Shown piece after piece: positions 5,011 to 16,726 of a stretch of DNA of 32,863 nucleotides; position 1 is the stretch's first letter, and the number at the start of each line of letters is the position of its first letter. This DNA is from a virus. The stretch spans positions 1 through 32,863 of IMG/VR virus record IMGVR_UViG_3300042879_001881; one strand, given 5' to 3'. The notes beneath the pieces are model-generated. The model ran no database searches. It worked only from the letters and a program-made list of their open reading frames with translations, and was not told the DNA's origin. Position numbers and translations under genes: made by a program.

Positions 5011-6191
5011 AGATAAAGTACCAACGCCCGCCCCTTGCACCGTATCAAATCGCTATCCTTGACAGCACGGCCCGCTACACCGTAACCGCTGCCAGCACGA
5101 AGGCAGGGAAAACCGCTTCACACATTGTGTGGCTTTTTGAAAAGGCGTTGCAAGGCAAAAAGGGGCAGTCATTCTGGTGGGTTGCGCCTGTATATGGACA
5201 GGCAGAAATCGCGTTCAGGCGTTTCAAGCAACAATGTTCTGAGCGGCTGTTTGATGCCAACGAAAGTAAATTACGATTGACCTTGCCAACGGGAGCAATG
5301 ATTGAATTTAAGTCAGCAGAAAAGCCCGACAATCTTTACGGCGATGATGTCTATGCGGCCGTGTTCGATGAGTTCACCCGCGCCCGTGAGGAAGCATGGT
5401 TTGCGCTTCGTTCCACGCTGACAAAAACACGAGGGCAATGCAAGCTGATTGGCAACGTGAAAGGCAAAAAGAACTGGGGCTACCGATTGGCAGAACGGGC
5501 AAGGCAGGGCGAAGATGGGTATGAGTTCCATAAAATCACGGCTTGGGACGCGGTAAACGCTGGCATATTGGAAAAAGAAGAAGTAGAACAGGCAGAACGT
5601 GACCTTCCCGCGCACGTCTTTAAGGAGTTGTACCTCGCAGAACCAGCAGATGATGATAGCAACCCTTTCGGATTAGACCACATTCGGTCATGTATCGAAC
5701 CGTTAGCAGCCGGCCCGGTTGAATGGTATGGCATTGACCTTGCAAAAAGCCGAGATTGGACGGTAATAATTGGACTAAATTCGTCCAAAAAGGTAGCCTT
5801 CTTCGAGCGTTTCCGGCTGGATTGGAAAGCAACCCGCGACACCGTGCAGCGGATTGTCGGCAGAACGCCTGCGGTCATTGACTCCACGGGAGTAGGCGAC
5901 CCGATTGTAGAAGATTTGCAGCGCGTTTGCCCACGGATTCAGGGCTTCAAATACACCTCAATTTCTAAACAACAAATCATGGAAGATTTAGCAGGCGCAA
6001 TCCACGGGCGTGAGGTTGTGTTTCCTGACGGCCCGATAGTAGATGAATTAATGAACTTTGAATGGACACACACAAGGACAGGCATAAGTTACAATGCGCC
6101 TGAAGGGCTGCACGATGACTGCGTGAACGCGCTTGCGCTTGCCCTGCATTGCAGCCGCGTAAACAAAAAGGGGCTATTTCTACTGACATGA
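5007..6191 (+). CDS. terL: Terminase large subunit (packaging ATPase-nuclease)
   Basis: The product is 394 residues and cuts and translocates DNA into the prohead through the portal. Walker A is at residues 30-36 (STKAGKT) and Walker B at 115-122 (VYAAVFDE). A coupling-type motif GNVKGKK is near 149-155. RNase H-like nuclease acidic residues are at D244 (YGIDLAKSRD), D292 (VIDSTG) and D370/D371 (LHDDCVNALA). The length is usual to slightly short for the family. The start overlaps the chaperone frame, and the TGA overlaps the ATG of the next gene. It is on the plus strand, unlike the portal and capsid genes. Confidence 0.92.
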   Translation: MKIKYQRPPLAPYQIAILDSTARYTVTAASTKAGKTASHIVWLFEKALQGKKGQSFWWVAPVYGQAEIAFRRFKQQCSERLFDANESKLRLTLPTGAMIEFKSAEKPDNLYGDDVYAAVFDEFTRAREEAWFALRSTLTKTRGQCKLIGNVKGKKNWGYRLAERARQGEDGYEFHKITAWDAVNAGILEKEEVEQAERDLPAHVFKELYLAEPADDDSNPFGLDHIRSCIEPLAAGPVEWYGIDLAKSRDWTVIIGLNSSKKVAFFERFRLDWKATRDTVQRIVGRTPAVIDSTGVGDPIVEDLQRVCPRIQGFKYTSISKQQIMEDLAGAIHGREVVFPDGPIVDELMNFEWTHTRTGISYNAPEGLHDDCVNALALALHCSRVNKKGLFLLT

Positions 6192-12620: not shown

Positions 12621-15010
12621 TATACTTCTTTAATCAATACCACGTTCCAATCCGCTCCTGTCCATTCAATAGCAGGGCGGTAAACATCGCCTGTGGTGGG
12701 TGCGCCGATGTCCTTGTAAGTTAAATTCACTACGCCTTGTGTCCAGTCTACTATCGGCCCTTTGCCGCCTTCGTTGCTGCCTCCGAGCGTTGACCATGCA
12801 AATCGTTTCTTCTTCCCGATGGGCCGCGTCCTGATGTTTGGGAAAGCATCGTTATTCGTGTCCTTAATGTCGTACCCTCCCCCGGCTGCCCCGGTCTGCG
12901 GGGTGAACACGTTTGCTGTTTTGATTTTCAAGAACTCGCACTCGATTAACTCGCTTTCGCCTACTTGGTAATCTTGGATTTTGTTCAGTCTGAAATATTG
13001 GCCCTGAAAGAAATACAAATCCCGGAATGACCATTTCAGCCAGTCAGCCGGAGTGATGTAAACCCGCGCCGTAACGATGCGACTATTTCGGTCGGTGATT
13101 TCCGTCAGGTACTTTCTCCAGTAAACGTTAAACAGGTTGTTGTTGGTGTATGTTACGCCAGCCGGAAGGTTTACATATGCAGGCATTCCAAAGGACAGGT
13201 CAATAGTCGGTGTGAAAGGGTCATCCAAATGCCCTGCGTGGGGATAGCCTTCGATGGTATCAGCACCGGACGGCCCGGTAAAGAACTTGAACGAGTCGCA
13301 CAATAACCATTCTTCAGTACCTATTTTTCCGCTCCAGTACAGGATACGCAGCGTTCCAGCCTTTTCTTCAGCCGTTTCCATGCTTGCAATGCGGAAGTTA
13401 TTGCTGCTTTCCGTGCTGTATGGCGTGGATGCGAAGATGGTTTCTGTTTTGCGCTCGTCTTTTATCAGGTCGTTGTCTATTATTATCCGCGCTTCTCCGT
13501 ACACCGTGCCAATGGCGTCCACATATTCTTTGCTGTCATCATCATCCCCTTTCGCGTATGTGAAGACGTAAGGGTTGCCTTCCAATTCGCCCATTGGGGT
13601 TATCGTCATGGGCTGCGAATAATCAATCTTCGCGGTCAGGTCGTGAATGACCGTATCGCGATAGAAGGTGTCACGCGGTGCAATGTATAGTTCATTAGTG
13701 CGCCCGGTCGGTTCGATGTACAGGTTGAACATCTTCACCAGGCTGTTTAAGAACTCGTCCTGCTTCCACTTGCCCCCGGTGAAAATGCCATTCATGTCCA
13801 CGGTTGAATCCAGCCCATAGGAAGTCTGAATCGGGTCAATCCTTACCCAGCTGTTTGCCTTAATTGTTATGATTCCCCCGGTAATTACCTCACCCATCCG
13901 GGCATCAGAATAATCCAGCACATCAATAATGCGTAGGTCTATCTTTTCGTTTTTGTCAGCATAGACGTCATTAATGGTGAAGGTGAATGTTTTTGTTGCG
14001 CCCGTTACTGCCACGTTCACGATCCGCAAAGGGTTGTGCAGTTCAGCCAGCTTCCCATCCACATAAACGCCGACCGTCATTGTGATGTAAGGATAGGTTA
14101 CGTTTGAAAGGCCTGTGATATTCACGGTGATACTACCCGATACGCTGAACCTCCCGCCGCCCGTGGGGCTGTTATACTTGCCCGTTGCCGTATCGAAGTT
14201 CCCGCCGTTGTCGTAATAACCGCCGCTGCTGTCGTCGTTAAAAACAATCGTGCTGCCTTCCGCGTAAACCGCATCCGCGTTGCGCCTTGCCCGTGCCTTG
14301 CGCGATGTTACAACAGCCTCGTTTATCTGTGGAACGCCCGGCGATGGGATGACAAGTTTTTTGAACAGGTCTGTATTGAAGAATGAATCTGAAGAATACG
14401 CGAACCCCGCGCTGGTGAAAATCTTATCAACTAATGTTTTTGCAAACACAGCCGGGTAAAAGTCCTGAACGCGCCACACCATTGCAAACGGTACGTCCGT
14501 CCTATTTCGGTCAATCATTGGATAAACGTAACCGCTTGCAGGTGTAAAATTCCAACTTGCCTGAATGTTGGTACGGTTTAGGGTGTGGTTAAATTCGGAT
14601 AGGTCAATATCCGAAAGCTGAAGGTTGCGAATCTTCGCGAACAGGTCAGCCGCTAAGCCGTGAACGCTCACTTCGTATTCTATTTGTCCTTTGCGCGTGA
14701 CGTTTATGTTGAGCAACCGGACATATCCGCGCACCTGTTCCACCTCATCCACCGTCACAAGGGCCGCCGCTTTCTTGTTCGGGTTAAAGTCAGGCGCGAA
14801 TTGTGTGCCGTTGTTGAGCTGCTCCTGGTTCACATCGAAGATGTGGCCGAAAAGCTTATTATTGGCTGATGTGCCGGGGATGCGAAAGGTCCTGGACCAA
14901 TCAGAGGACCGCTGCGCAGGCTCGCGGATGTCCGCTATCTCCCGGGTAACTTGCAGAACTTCGTTTTCCGACAGATCCACCTGCCTGCCTTCAATAAACA
15001 ACCGCATCAT
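12620..15010 (-). CDS. Large tail / baseplate protein
   Basis: The product has 796 residues. The opening MRLFIEGRQVDLSENEVLQVTREIADIREPAQRSSDWSRTF is typical of Bacteroidota siphophage tail proteins placed after the tape measure-type genes and thought to form the tail tip (distal tail/hub region). Most of it is beta-rich; residues near 285-320 are Gly/Ser/Thr-rich with SGSITVNITGLSN, which could be a carbohydrate-binding insertion. No enzyme motif was seen. The start (ATGATG at 15010) overlaps the preceding gene. The role is inferred from order and size. Confidence 0.65.
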   Translation of the reverse strand: MMRLFIEGRQVDLSENEVLQVTREIADIREPAQRSSDWSRTFRIPGTSANNKLFGHIFDVNQEQLNNGTQFAPDFNPNKKAAALVTVDEVEQVRGYVRLLNINVTRKGQIEYEVSVHGLAADLFAKIRNLQLSDIDLSEFNHTLNRTNIQASWNFTPASGYVYPMIDRNRTDVPFAMVWRVQDFYPAVFAKTLVDKIFTSAGFAYSSDSFFNTDLFKKLVIPSPGVPQINEAVVTSRKARARRNADAVYAEGSTIVFNDDSSGGYYDNGGNFDTATGKYNSPTGGGRFSVSGSITVNITGLSNVTYPYITMTVGVYVDGKLAELHNPLRIVNVAVTGATKTFTFTINDVYADKNEKIDLRIIDVLDYSDARMGEVITGGIITIKANSWVRIDPIQTSYGLDSTVDMNGIFTGGKWKQDEFLNSLVKMFNLYIEPTGRTNELYIAPRDTFYRDTVIHDLTAKIDYSQPMTITPMGELEGNPYVFTYAKGDDDDSKEYVDAIGTVYGEARIIIDNDLIKDERKTETIFASTPYSTESSNNFRIASMETAEEKAGTLRILYWSGKIGTEEWLLCDSFKFFTGPSGADTIEGYPHAGHLDDPFTPTIDLSFGMPAYVNLPAGVTYTNNNLFNVYWRKYLTEITDRNSRIVTARVYITPADWLKWSFRDLYFFQGQYFRLNKIQDYQVGESELIECEFLKIKTANVFTPQTGAAGGGYDIKDTNNDAFPNIRTRPIGKKKRFAWSTLGGSNEGGKGPIVDWTQGVVNLTYKDIGAPTTGDVYRPAIEWTGADWNVVLIKEV

Positions 15011-16197
15011 AGCCGCTGCCTCCTGTTTGTCAGGGCGCGTTGAATGGTGACGGAATATTGCACCAGCCCATCCCGGTTGTACTTGCGCTCAAACTCCGTG
15101 GAGTTTACAGTAACCTTTTCCATTGCACTAAACGCGCCCATGTAAACCACAGGACTGAATAGCAACTGCTCGATAAATTCCGCTTCGGTATCCGTGAGGA
15201 AGTCCGTGTTGAGCGTCCATTGCTCCGTCACCATTGTATTGTAATTGGTGACACCGCCCCGAGCGTTTGAGTAGTTGTATGCGCCTGTGGTATAACGGAA
15301 CGAATCCTGCTCAAAGGTCTTTTTCTCCCCGGTCAGGTTGCGCACCGTACGTTTGCGGAAGGTATAGGAATCGAACCCTCCCAAGGTGTTGAGGAAGTGA
15401 AGCGTTACCGGGTCGTACTTGCTGCACTCCGTCCACAGGTCGAAGCGCATTGTTTCCGATGCCTTGCCTGAGTAACCGGAAGGGTACGCCTGCACCGTGT
15501 AATAAGCCTCGTTTCCAGACGTAAAGCCTATGCCGTTGAAGGTGCAATCAGCCGCAAGCAGCCGCGATTTGTAGTCAACATAGGTGAAGGTTTTCTGCAC
15601 CGTCTGAAGCAGCGAACCTGCCGCGTTGTAACTCTTAAACTCAAACACCTTATTTACCGTGTCCGTACCAAACAGCGCATGAATCGTGTGCGCCTCATCT
15701 GCCTGCACTTTGCGAGGGCGAACCGTGGTAAGAAATTGCGCCCCGGCTGTTCCACCGGATGCGGTTAGGTAGTCTGCTTGGGCATAACCGAGGAAGTCCT
15801 GCACAGGCAGGCAGGCATCCCATGAAAACTTGTTCCCCGTGTTCACTACGCCCGTGGCTTCCGTCACAACCCCGCTGCCGTATTCATAACCAAACTTTGC
15901 CCGATAGGTAACGATGCGAGGCTGCCCGACAACCGCCGCCGCTGATGGTGGTTCAAAGTCGTTGCCGACGTATGACGCGATGATTTCTGTAATGTCGAAC
16001 ACCGCTTCGTTTTGGCTGCTGCCATATCTGATGGGTGCTTTGAGTTTCGCCTGAATCGTGCCATCAATCTCCACCTCGCACAGGTAGCGGAAATTGCTTG
16101 CGCCCGTTATTGCCGTGTCCGTTTCGCGAACTACGAAGGTCAGCGGGTTAAAGGCAGGTGAGTAGTCTTGCGGCTGCTGCTGAATTGAGTAGGCCAT
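15007..16197 (-). CDS. Tail protein (distal tail-like)
   Basis: The product has 396 residues and is beta-rich throughout (MAYSIQQQPQDYSPAFNPLTFVVRE, VCEVEIDGTIQAKLKAPI-like strands), ending RRQRL. It is the first gene of the tail unit: its ATG follows directly the putative late promoter block at 16198-16227. The gene encodes no recognisable enzyme. The neighbour downstream is the large tail protein, with a 4-base overlap. A minor tail or distal tail role fits context; the exact family is not recognised. Confidence 0.6.
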   Translation of the reverse strand: MAYSIQQQPQDYSPAFNPLTFVVRETDTAITGASNFRYLCEVEIDGTIQAKLKAPIRYGSSQNEAVFDITEIIASYVGNDFEPPSAAAVVGQPRIVTYRAKFGYEYGSGVVTEATGVVNTGNKFSWDACLPVQDFLGYAQADYLTASGGTAGAQFLTTVRPRKVQADEAHTIHALFGTDTVNKVFEFKSYNAAGSLLQTVQKTFTYVDYKSRLLAADCTFNGIGFTSGNEAYYTVQAYPSGYSGKASETMRFDLWTECSKYDPVTLHFLNTLGGFDSYTFRKRTVRNLTGEKKTFEQDSFRYTTGAYNYSNARGGVTNYNTMVTEQWTLNTDFLTDTEAEFIEQLLFSPVVYMGAFSAMEKVTVNSTEFERKYNRDGLVQYSVTIQRALTNRRQRL

Positions 16198-16257: not shown

Positions 16258-16284
16258 AAGGGGCAGCCACCACAGCTACCCCTT
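16258..16284 (-). terminator. Terminator before the tail unit
   Basis: On the minus strand AAGGGG-t-AGC pairs with GCT-g-CCCCTT around a short loop and is followed by TTTCACTTT. It would separate leftward transcripts of the early region and tRNA-like element from the tail unit. Confidence 0.6.
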
Positions 16285-16368: not shown

Positions 16369-16487
16369 TGACCGGGGATGGATTCAAACCATCAACCCAT
16401 TCAACCCGCTTGGCTCTCTTTCGGTCGGTGCTTGCAAGCCACCTCGCGAAGCGTAGTTAATGCTCTTGTCAGTTGAGCTACCCGGTC
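16369..16487 (-). tRNA. tRNA-like element with a 50-base anticodon loop (degenerate or intron-bearing)
   Basis: On the minus strand a 7-bp acceptor stem (GACCGGG / CCCGGTC) with discriminator A, a D stem (GCTC / GAGC), and a T arm (GATGG, loop TTTGAAT, CCATC) are all present in tRNA order. The anticodon stem can be drawn as TTAAC / GTTGA, but its loop is 50 bases instead of 7 and contains a further hairpin (GGTG...CACC around GCTTGCAAGC). The D loop lacks the GG pair and the T loop has T instead of C56, so the usual G19-C56 contact is missing. No anticodon can be read. It may be a decayed tRNA, one with a ~43-base insert, or a tRNA mimic. Confidence 0.45.
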
Positions 16488-16522
16488 ATGTTTGCCGCCA
16501 TGTCCCTGACGGCTGGGTATTT

Positions 16523-16726
16523 TCAATCTTCTTCTATCAACTCCGGGCCATCCTCCATCCCATCGCGATGAATGAGTTTTAGTTCCCTTGGCTCGTAGCA
16601 CATCTGCCCGTTGCCTACCCAAACCCATACGCGGTTTTGCAGGTCGTTAATTTTGGCAACGCGCCCCTGTATGCCGAAGGTGTCCTCTACAAGGTCAGCT
16701 TCTTTGAAATAGCGTGAGTTGTTCAT
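16523..16726 (-). CDS. Small hypothetical protein
   Basis: The product has 67 residues: MNNSRYFKEADLVEDTFGIQ, then GRVAKINDLQNRVWVWVGNGQ and an acidic end. The middle looks like a small beta-barrel (KOW/SH3-like) fold, but no family is recognised. Its start overlaps the preceding gene by 4 bases. It is the last early-region gene before the tRNA-like spacer. Confidence 0.6.
   Translation of the reverse strand: MNNSRYFKEADLVEDTFGIQGRVAKINDLQNRVWVWVGNGQMCYEPRELKLIHRDGMEDGPELIEED

Follow-up and report, generated by a model that had tools for sequence, protein, structure and literature searches.

The usual explanations for transfer RNA (tRNA) genes in phages are codon supply and the replacement of cleaved host tRNAs, and RNAs that mimic a tRNA without having an anticodon are already known from several settings: transfer-messenger RNA (tmRNA), the tRNA-like structures that sit at the 3′ ends of plant-virus RNA genomes, the bacterial YrlA RNAs with their Ro-binding stem, and mascRNA. 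Together with menRNA, the last of these makes up the tRNA-like 3′ ends of MALAT1 and NEAT1; according to a published structural study, RNase P and RNase Z both recognize the elbow of mascRNA, which is matured by these two nucleases and CCA addition and whose anticodon loop is not conserved (PMC11693755). Here we describe a tRNA-like element in a 32.9-kb phage record from IMG/VR (IMGVR_UViG_3300042879_001881, positions 1 to 32,863; this whole stretch of 32,863 nucleotides is called the window below). On the minus strand, the element runs from G1 at 16487 to C72 at 16370 and A73 at 16369 in tRNA numbering. We tentatively favour the reading that selection may maintain it as a tRNA mimic that does not decode and that would be excised from phage transcripts by tRNA end-processing enzymes.

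Like mascRNA and menRNA, the element keeps the acceptor, T arm and elbow, has a D arm and lacks a working anticodon, but those two are fixed mammalian RNAs matured through RNase P and RNase Z cleavage, whereas the class described here is carried by phages, has a core that is hypervariable and is presumed to be processed. Acceptor, D and T arms are shared with canonical phage tRNA genes (Rfam model RF00005), especially those for tRNA-Leu, and many members of the class carry leucine letters; unlike such genes, the window element lacks a 7-nucleotide (nt) anticodon loop with U33. The tRNA-Undet genes of Tenacibaculum phage pT24, a Bacteroidota phage, are likewise tRNA-like with a long anticodon arm, but have another acceptor sequence and are annotated merely as undetermined tRNAs. 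With tmRNA the element shares a tRNA-like domain without an anticodon, yet the window has no match to the tmRNA model (RF00023) and the element neither a tag frame nor a long insert. It resembles the plant-virus 3′ structures and YrlA in being a viral or non-coding mimic of a tRNA and differs from the former in lying inside a DNA phage genome. Searches of open-licence PubMed Central papers, with PMC11693755, PMC9976931 and PMC6409571 among the matches, turned up no description of a class that is phage-borne, hypervariable and selected at the elbow.

A tRNA-like element in the window

A search in which the acceptor sequence was left free, and which required a 7-base-pair (bp) acceptor stem, a D arm and a T arm of 5 bp closing a T-like loop, returned one match in the window and none in 150 dinucleotide shuffles, and the tRNA-like element at this place is confirmed as real (Table 1). 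As a preliminary description of the window had claimed, the three arms are ordered and paired, with stems of 7, 4 and 5 bp, and the loop of about 50 bases at the anticodon position holds a hairpin of its own according to fold prediction. Canonical class I tRNAs have ~23 nt between the D and T arms; in the element this part is a far longer core, and the stem that stands at the anticodon-arm position is weak. As a whole the element is predicted to fold at −42.9 kcal/mol (z = −3.2). The combination expected of a decoding tRNA (5-bp anticodon stem, 7-nt loop and U33) is absent from the element, ARAGORN run without introns made no call in the window, and Rfam at the gathering score, for group I introns as for any other family, gave 0 matches there.

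In aligned tRNA numbering, the tertiary positions read A19–U56, A15–U48, G18–U55 and U54–A58. Both partners of the G19–C56 contact had been described as missing; those letters are indeed absent, but with A19 and U56 in their places the elbow contact is kept in another Watson–Crick form. Acceptor stem, T arm, D arm and elbow contacts (with A19–U56 and A15–U48) are thus all present, and, as in mascRNA-like mimics, the elbow and the acceptor/T stack are kept without a decoding anticodon arm. The copy of the element in one related phage (L005; loci are referred to by L numbers) is identical at 113 of 118 positions, and two of the five changes, all of them in the core, sit in the 5-bp stem with pairing kept.

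Table 1. Coordinates of the element, its parts and its neighbours in the window.
Feature	Position	Strand	Remarks
Acceptor stem, 5′ strand, GACCGGG (G1–G7)	16481..16487	−	7/7 pairs with 16370–16376
D arm, GCTC-AACTGACAA-GAGC (A14, A15, G18, A19)	16462..16478	−	4-bp stem; A19 (16469) opposite U56, A15 (16473) opposite U48
Variable core, 68 nt	16394..16461	−	replaces anticodon arm and variable loop
Core stem, 5 bp, TTAAC/GTTGA	16456–16460 with 16401–16405	−	closes a 50-nt loop; one G–U pair
T arm, GATGG-TTTGAAT-CCATC (U56 at 16386)	16377..16393	−	5-bp stem; T-loop consensus save C56 to U
Acceptor stem, 3′ strand, CCCGGTC (C72 at 16370)	16370..16376	−	
A73 and C74	16368..16369	−	CCA not encoded
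Leader hairpin, GCCGTCAGGGACATGGCGGC	16494..16513	−	ends 6 nt before G1
G+C-rich hairpin, then TTTT	16260..16283	−	terminator-like by eye; between element and next gene
67-amino-acid gene, unknown function	16523..16726	−	directly upstream of element; weak phrog_9469 match
396-amino-acid gene, unknown function	15007..16197	−	downstream of element

Related phages and compensatory change at the elbow

Homologous sites were located through the 396-amino-acid gene, which has 23 relatives in IMG/VR. Among the 22 loci with sequence at this spot, 9 have tRNA-like elements and 13 do not, with 0 to 3 elements per locus. The anticodon loop has 5 nt in L002, 4–6 nt in L007 and an ordinary 7 nt in the short element of L013 and L014; L010 bears a 133-nt element with the acceptor AGTCAGG, and L005 (one contig with L044 and L046) three tRNA-like elements in tandem. 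L008 has an element without any anticodon arm, followed by a minihelix of acceptor and T arm only. A minihelix is also present in L022, and there is none in L006 and L024, with flanks otherwise similar.

Anticodon-less sister elements of 58–60 nt carry the 19–56 pair in two forms, G19–C56 in L059 and C19–G56 in L063 and L008. L059 and L063 differ at 4 positions in 60 nt, two of which are the change of G19 to C together with that of C56 to G; this swap argues that the tRNA elbow is selected and the anticodon arm is not. To extend the comparison to the wider class described below, IMG/VR was scanned separately and completely for AGTCAGG elements with a base other than C at position 56, the set with the window's acceptor (GACCGGG) was added and cases were counted per cluster; because the non-C56 cases were gathered separately, the counts are informative only about which base 19 accompanies a given base 56. 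So counted, 19–56 is a Watson–Crick pair in 107 of 122 cases, which none of 20,000 permutations reached. The non-C56 cases (n = 13) comprise 8 Watson–Crick pairs, 4 G–U pairs and 1 unpaired combination, and the remaining mismatches (seven A–C and three U–C) may in part be mis-parsed D loops. Compensatory base pairs, whose absence from relatives the preliminary description had named, along with the lack of a covariance-model score, as grounds for abandoning the element, are found.

At the level of sequence, these comparisons show the upper half of the tRNA (acceptor, T arm, D arm, contacts 15–48, 18–55, 19–56 and 54–58, and R73–C74) being kept by compensatory change, and the anticodon arm being deleted or replaced by a core that differs between phages. 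The 19–56 statistics, like the acceptor-independent scan, the counts of anticodon arms, R73–C74, architectures, clusters and leucine letters, the core stabilities, and the comparisons of gene orientation, open reading frame (ORF) spacing and leader hairpins below, cover elements with a parsable D arm, a requirement that drops the L209 family and, from the group to which the window belongs, elements such as that at 8707 in L030 and that in L022.

A wider class in viral contigs

The GACCGGG pattern occurs in 20 contig stretches in IMG/VR, and in relaxed form it yields 23 distinct viral elements, ~19 of them non-canonical by inspection. In 84,980 cellular genomes the same pattern gave 21 loci, with an ordinary ARAGORN call for 17 of the 19 distinct elements. 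The AGTCAGG pattern is represented in IMG/VR by at least 157 distinct elements of 68–141 nt (at least one nested match being counted twice), 117 of the 157 listed being without an ARAGORN call, which means that annotation tools relying on the anticodon miss most of these elements.

A scan of the fetched loci that was independent of the acceptor sequence (three loci, L001, L230 and L231, being omitted) found 396 elements, compared with 2 in one block shuffle. In the loci scanned, a canonical anticodon arm is present in 16 of the 137 AGTCAGG elements versus 184 of the 210 with other acceptors, and the corresponding counts are 2 of 12 for GGTCAGG or AGTTAGG, 3 of 19 for viral GACCGGG and 14 of 18 for cellular GACCGGG. 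The non-canonical elements (n = 147) fall into 116 sequence clusters, which indicates that the cores are hypervariable, and 138 of the 147 carry R73–C74. An anticodon stem can be drawn in the cores of 27 of the 116 clusters (17.1 expected, standard deviation 3.9), weakly above chance, and the cores are slightly more stable than shuffled ones (mean z = −0.56).

Shared interiors link the GACCGGG and AGTCAGG groups: one core stands on either acceptor in L030 (GACCGGG) and L182 (AGTCAGG), with 87 of 91 interior bases identical, and a second pair across the two groups, L032 and L095, agrees at 58 of 66. A scan for GGTCAGG/CCTGACC found 40 elements whose D arm could be parsed, of which 19 are canonical and 21 non-canonical, and 15 further elements without a parsable D arm that count as non-canonical by default. 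This set mixes ordinary tRNAs (Cys, Ser, Leu, Phe and others) with non-canonical elements, which by inspection bear a D arm of the GGCGGAAT(T)GGTAGACGC type; members of the class therefore cannot be recognized by their acceptor alone, and its use as sole marker is weakened. In L208 (253–353 and 357–711, minus strand), a phage tmRNA (RF00023, 91 bits) was seen a few bases upstream of an AGTCAGG element with U19–A56.

One reading of such a class is that its members are tRNAs without function, decayed (as the preliminary description had offered among three options) or made by recombination. The cores of four elements (L107:3721, L214:12173, L115:7002 and L092:360) do hold an additional hairpin resembling a T arm (GGTTCGAxxCC), as might result from recombination between two tRNA genes, and the weak excess of anticodon stems would also fit. 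We nonetheless regard this reading as quite unlikely, and decay in particular as disfavoured, given the compensatory 19–56 changes with the C19–G56 swap in sister elements, a class that keeps ends and elbow without an anticodon arm, the exchange of a whole acceptor around a retained core (L030 and L182), the same D-to-T architecture across many unrelated contigs, several times per contig, and a 3′ half kept at 84 of 85 D-arm-anchored N-GTCAGG sites, with the reservation that most loci were fetched by a pattern including that half.

A true tRNA interrupted by a very small spliced intron is highly improbable. With introns allowed, ARAGORN does read the window as a tRNA-Pro(CGG) with a 46-nt intron, but it makes the same call for 64 of 300 window copies whose cores were shuffled; taking the clusters together, it makes calls for 83 of 116 real and 792 of 1,160 shuffled cores. 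Because shuffled cores give intron calls as often overall, the intron reading is unsupported and was rejected, in agreement with the preliminary description, which had not favoured it. Relatives with loops of 4–6 nt or with no anticodon arm would be inexplicable by an intron, and there is no Rfam intron match.

Leucine letters and variable cores

The D arm of many, probably most, AGTCAGG-type elements resembles that of tRNA-Leu. The combination of A73 with A15–U48 occurs in 72 of 104 NGTYAGG clusters, in 32 of 147 canonical non-Leu tRNAs and in 20 of 20 canonical tRNA-Leu; when G19–C56 and A20a are added, the counts are 49 of 104, 8 of 147 and 19 of 20. The window element has A73, A15–U48 and A20a, with A19–U56 instead of G19–C56. 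For Escherichia coli, a review places leucine identity in A73, A15–U48, G18G19, A20a and tertiary pairs, the anticodon arm being dispensable for charging (PMC9976931).

The elements could accordingly be leucine-accepting decoys, matured and charged by the host leucyl-tRNA synthetase, that tie up this enzyme or soak up defence enzymes acting on tRNA acceptor ends. An identity set that lies outside the anticodon arm, the fourfold combination in NGTYAGG clusters and the three leucine features of the window copy all speak for this possibility, which we nevertheless rate as unlikely: A73 with A15–U48 is found in just 3 of 12 clusters of GACCGGG, the window's own acceptor class, the window copy departs from G19–C56, the shortest elements (L008, L059 and L063) carry G15–C48 rather than A–U, and RNAs that simply descend from tRNA-Leu would show these letters even if never charged.

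The diversity of the cores (147 elements in 116 clusters) raises another possibility, namely that the core is a variable small RNA with a target of its own, for whose protection and processing the tRNA half serves as a natural scaffold. Consistent with this, cores are slightly more stable than their shuffled versions, and some core families recur across phages with helix changes on both strands (CATACAA/TTGTATG versus CATATAA/TTATATG in L172 and L139). Most cores, however, do not recur, L059 and L008, at 58–60 nt, are nearly coreless, and no target was identified, so we consider a scaffold role unlikely, though it and the leucine-accepting decoy are the chief rivals of the reading that follows.

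A possible route through tRNA maturation

The class keeps the features on which CCA addition and cleavage by RNase P and RNase Z depend and has lost those required for decoding; this is why a processed tRNA mimic is the reading that we favour. The element would be transcribed within a phage mRNA; RNase P, reading the elbow and the acceptor/T stack, would cut before G1, and RNase Z after A73, with CCA then added. The two cuts would separate the flanking transcripts, leaving an upstream piece that ends in the leader hairpin, and would release a stable small RNA unable to enter decoding, which might go on to another role, such as that of a leucine acceptor. The core would be free to vary because the elbow suffices for RNase P, RNase Z and CCA addition. 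Processing, CCA addition and any charging are thus proposed steps, and two of the options in the preliminary description, a tRNA mimic and a processing signal, both stand and are jointly the best reading.

Several observations weigh against it. Even with the threshold relaxed to E ≤ 10, the tRNA model RF00005 matches nothing in the window, so that the covariance-model check proposed in the preliminary description leaves the window copy unscored, although many sister elements lie above the gathering cut-off. Only three copies of the exact element are known (the window, L005 and L052), and that in L052 is cut by the contig end. RNase P contacts the G19–C56 stack, while the window copy has A19–U56, a pair that is not unique to the class, as canonical tRNAs of the same loci have G19–C56 in 195 of 201 cases and A19–U56 in 5 of 201. 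The elements do lie in transcript-like positions, which speaks for the proposal, the next same-strand ATG ORF following 10–29 nt past 32 of 116 elements versus 4 of 116 on the antisense side, but the same spacing is seen for 28 of 170 canonical tRNAs of these loci, whose leader hairpins are also similarly stable; position therefore does not distinguish the elements.

More cautiously still, we propose that these elements may form a widespread class of phage RNAs, mainly of Bacteroidota phages. These RNAs would be derived from tRNA-Leu and non-decoding, with an acceptor that hardly varies (AGTCAGG, GACCGGG and similar sequences), a selected elbow and hypervariable cargo where the anticodon arm would be; they would undergo tRNA maturation, perhaps also leucylation, and would act as processed mimics of tRNAs. 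The similar RNAs with varied middles in many uncultured viruses suggest an undescribed viral RNA class using the tRNA machinery beyond decoding. Non-decoding RNAs that keep the elbow fit neither codon supply nor the replacement of cleaved host tRNAs, and would therefore show another phage use of tRNA maturation. The elements also provide a natural mutational series for the 19–56 elbow pair, nearly invariant in canonical tRNAs, and natural leucine-type RNAs without anticodon arms.

Genomic setting and hosts

Hairpins near-identical or equivalent in pairing to the leader hairpin of the window stand 4–6 nt before elements in L005, L009, L010, L013, L022 and L032, and in relatives of the window phage a G+C-rich hairpin is followed by TTTTCTTTT. 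A simple promoter and terminator scan of the element region called nothing, the hairpin at 16260..16283 included, and the orientation of flanking genes showed no clear difference between elements and canonical tRNAs.

In the GenBank phage collection neither the DNA of the window phage nor the 396-amino-acid protein has a match, and helicase and terminase matches are distant. A Flavobacteriaceae contig of 201 kb contains a segment identical to the 8 kb around the L034 element; of 299 genomes of that family, 1 encodes a weak homologue of the 396-amino-acid protein, and the AGTCAGG pattern occurs in 0 of 395 genomes of its phylum. The contig and the weak homologue, together with the tRNA-Undet genes of similar make in Tenacibaculum phage pT24 and the crAssphage cr4_1 element described below, point indirectly to Bacteroidota as hosts.

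Other structured or tRNA-like sequences were seen in the same material. The DUF3800-VIII candidate RNA (RF03075) starts ~5 nt after the element in L002 (4506–4571), L007 (4827–4892) and L008 (4856–4921); a link of the elements to DUF3800 was dropped, a DUF3800 gene being present in 0 of the 25 records searched. A conserved structured stretch of ~100 nt (GCCGCTGACGGGCGG...TTCAGCGGATTAAAGGC), found upstream of the elements in L002, L004, L007 and L008, has no tRNA-like element after it in L004, and no Rfam match in L002, L007 or L008. Outside the window's phage group, L025 (9070–9137) and five further contigs (L026, L028, L037, L041 and L043) carry a tRNA-like gene of 68 nt whose anticodon loop seems to have 8 nt; ARAGORN reads a 4-base anticodon (CTCT) in it, as in frameshift suppressors. 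L064, a contig of 372,793 bases, has two tRNA-like genes with other acceptors on the plus strand (at 5079 and 5393), whose similar anticodon-region insert, starting ATGGCTTCTG, could be a small recurring insert. Finally, crAssphage cr4_1 (NC_055893.1, ~67840–67920; L233) contains an unannotated tRNA-like element with, by eye, a 9-nt anticodon loop.
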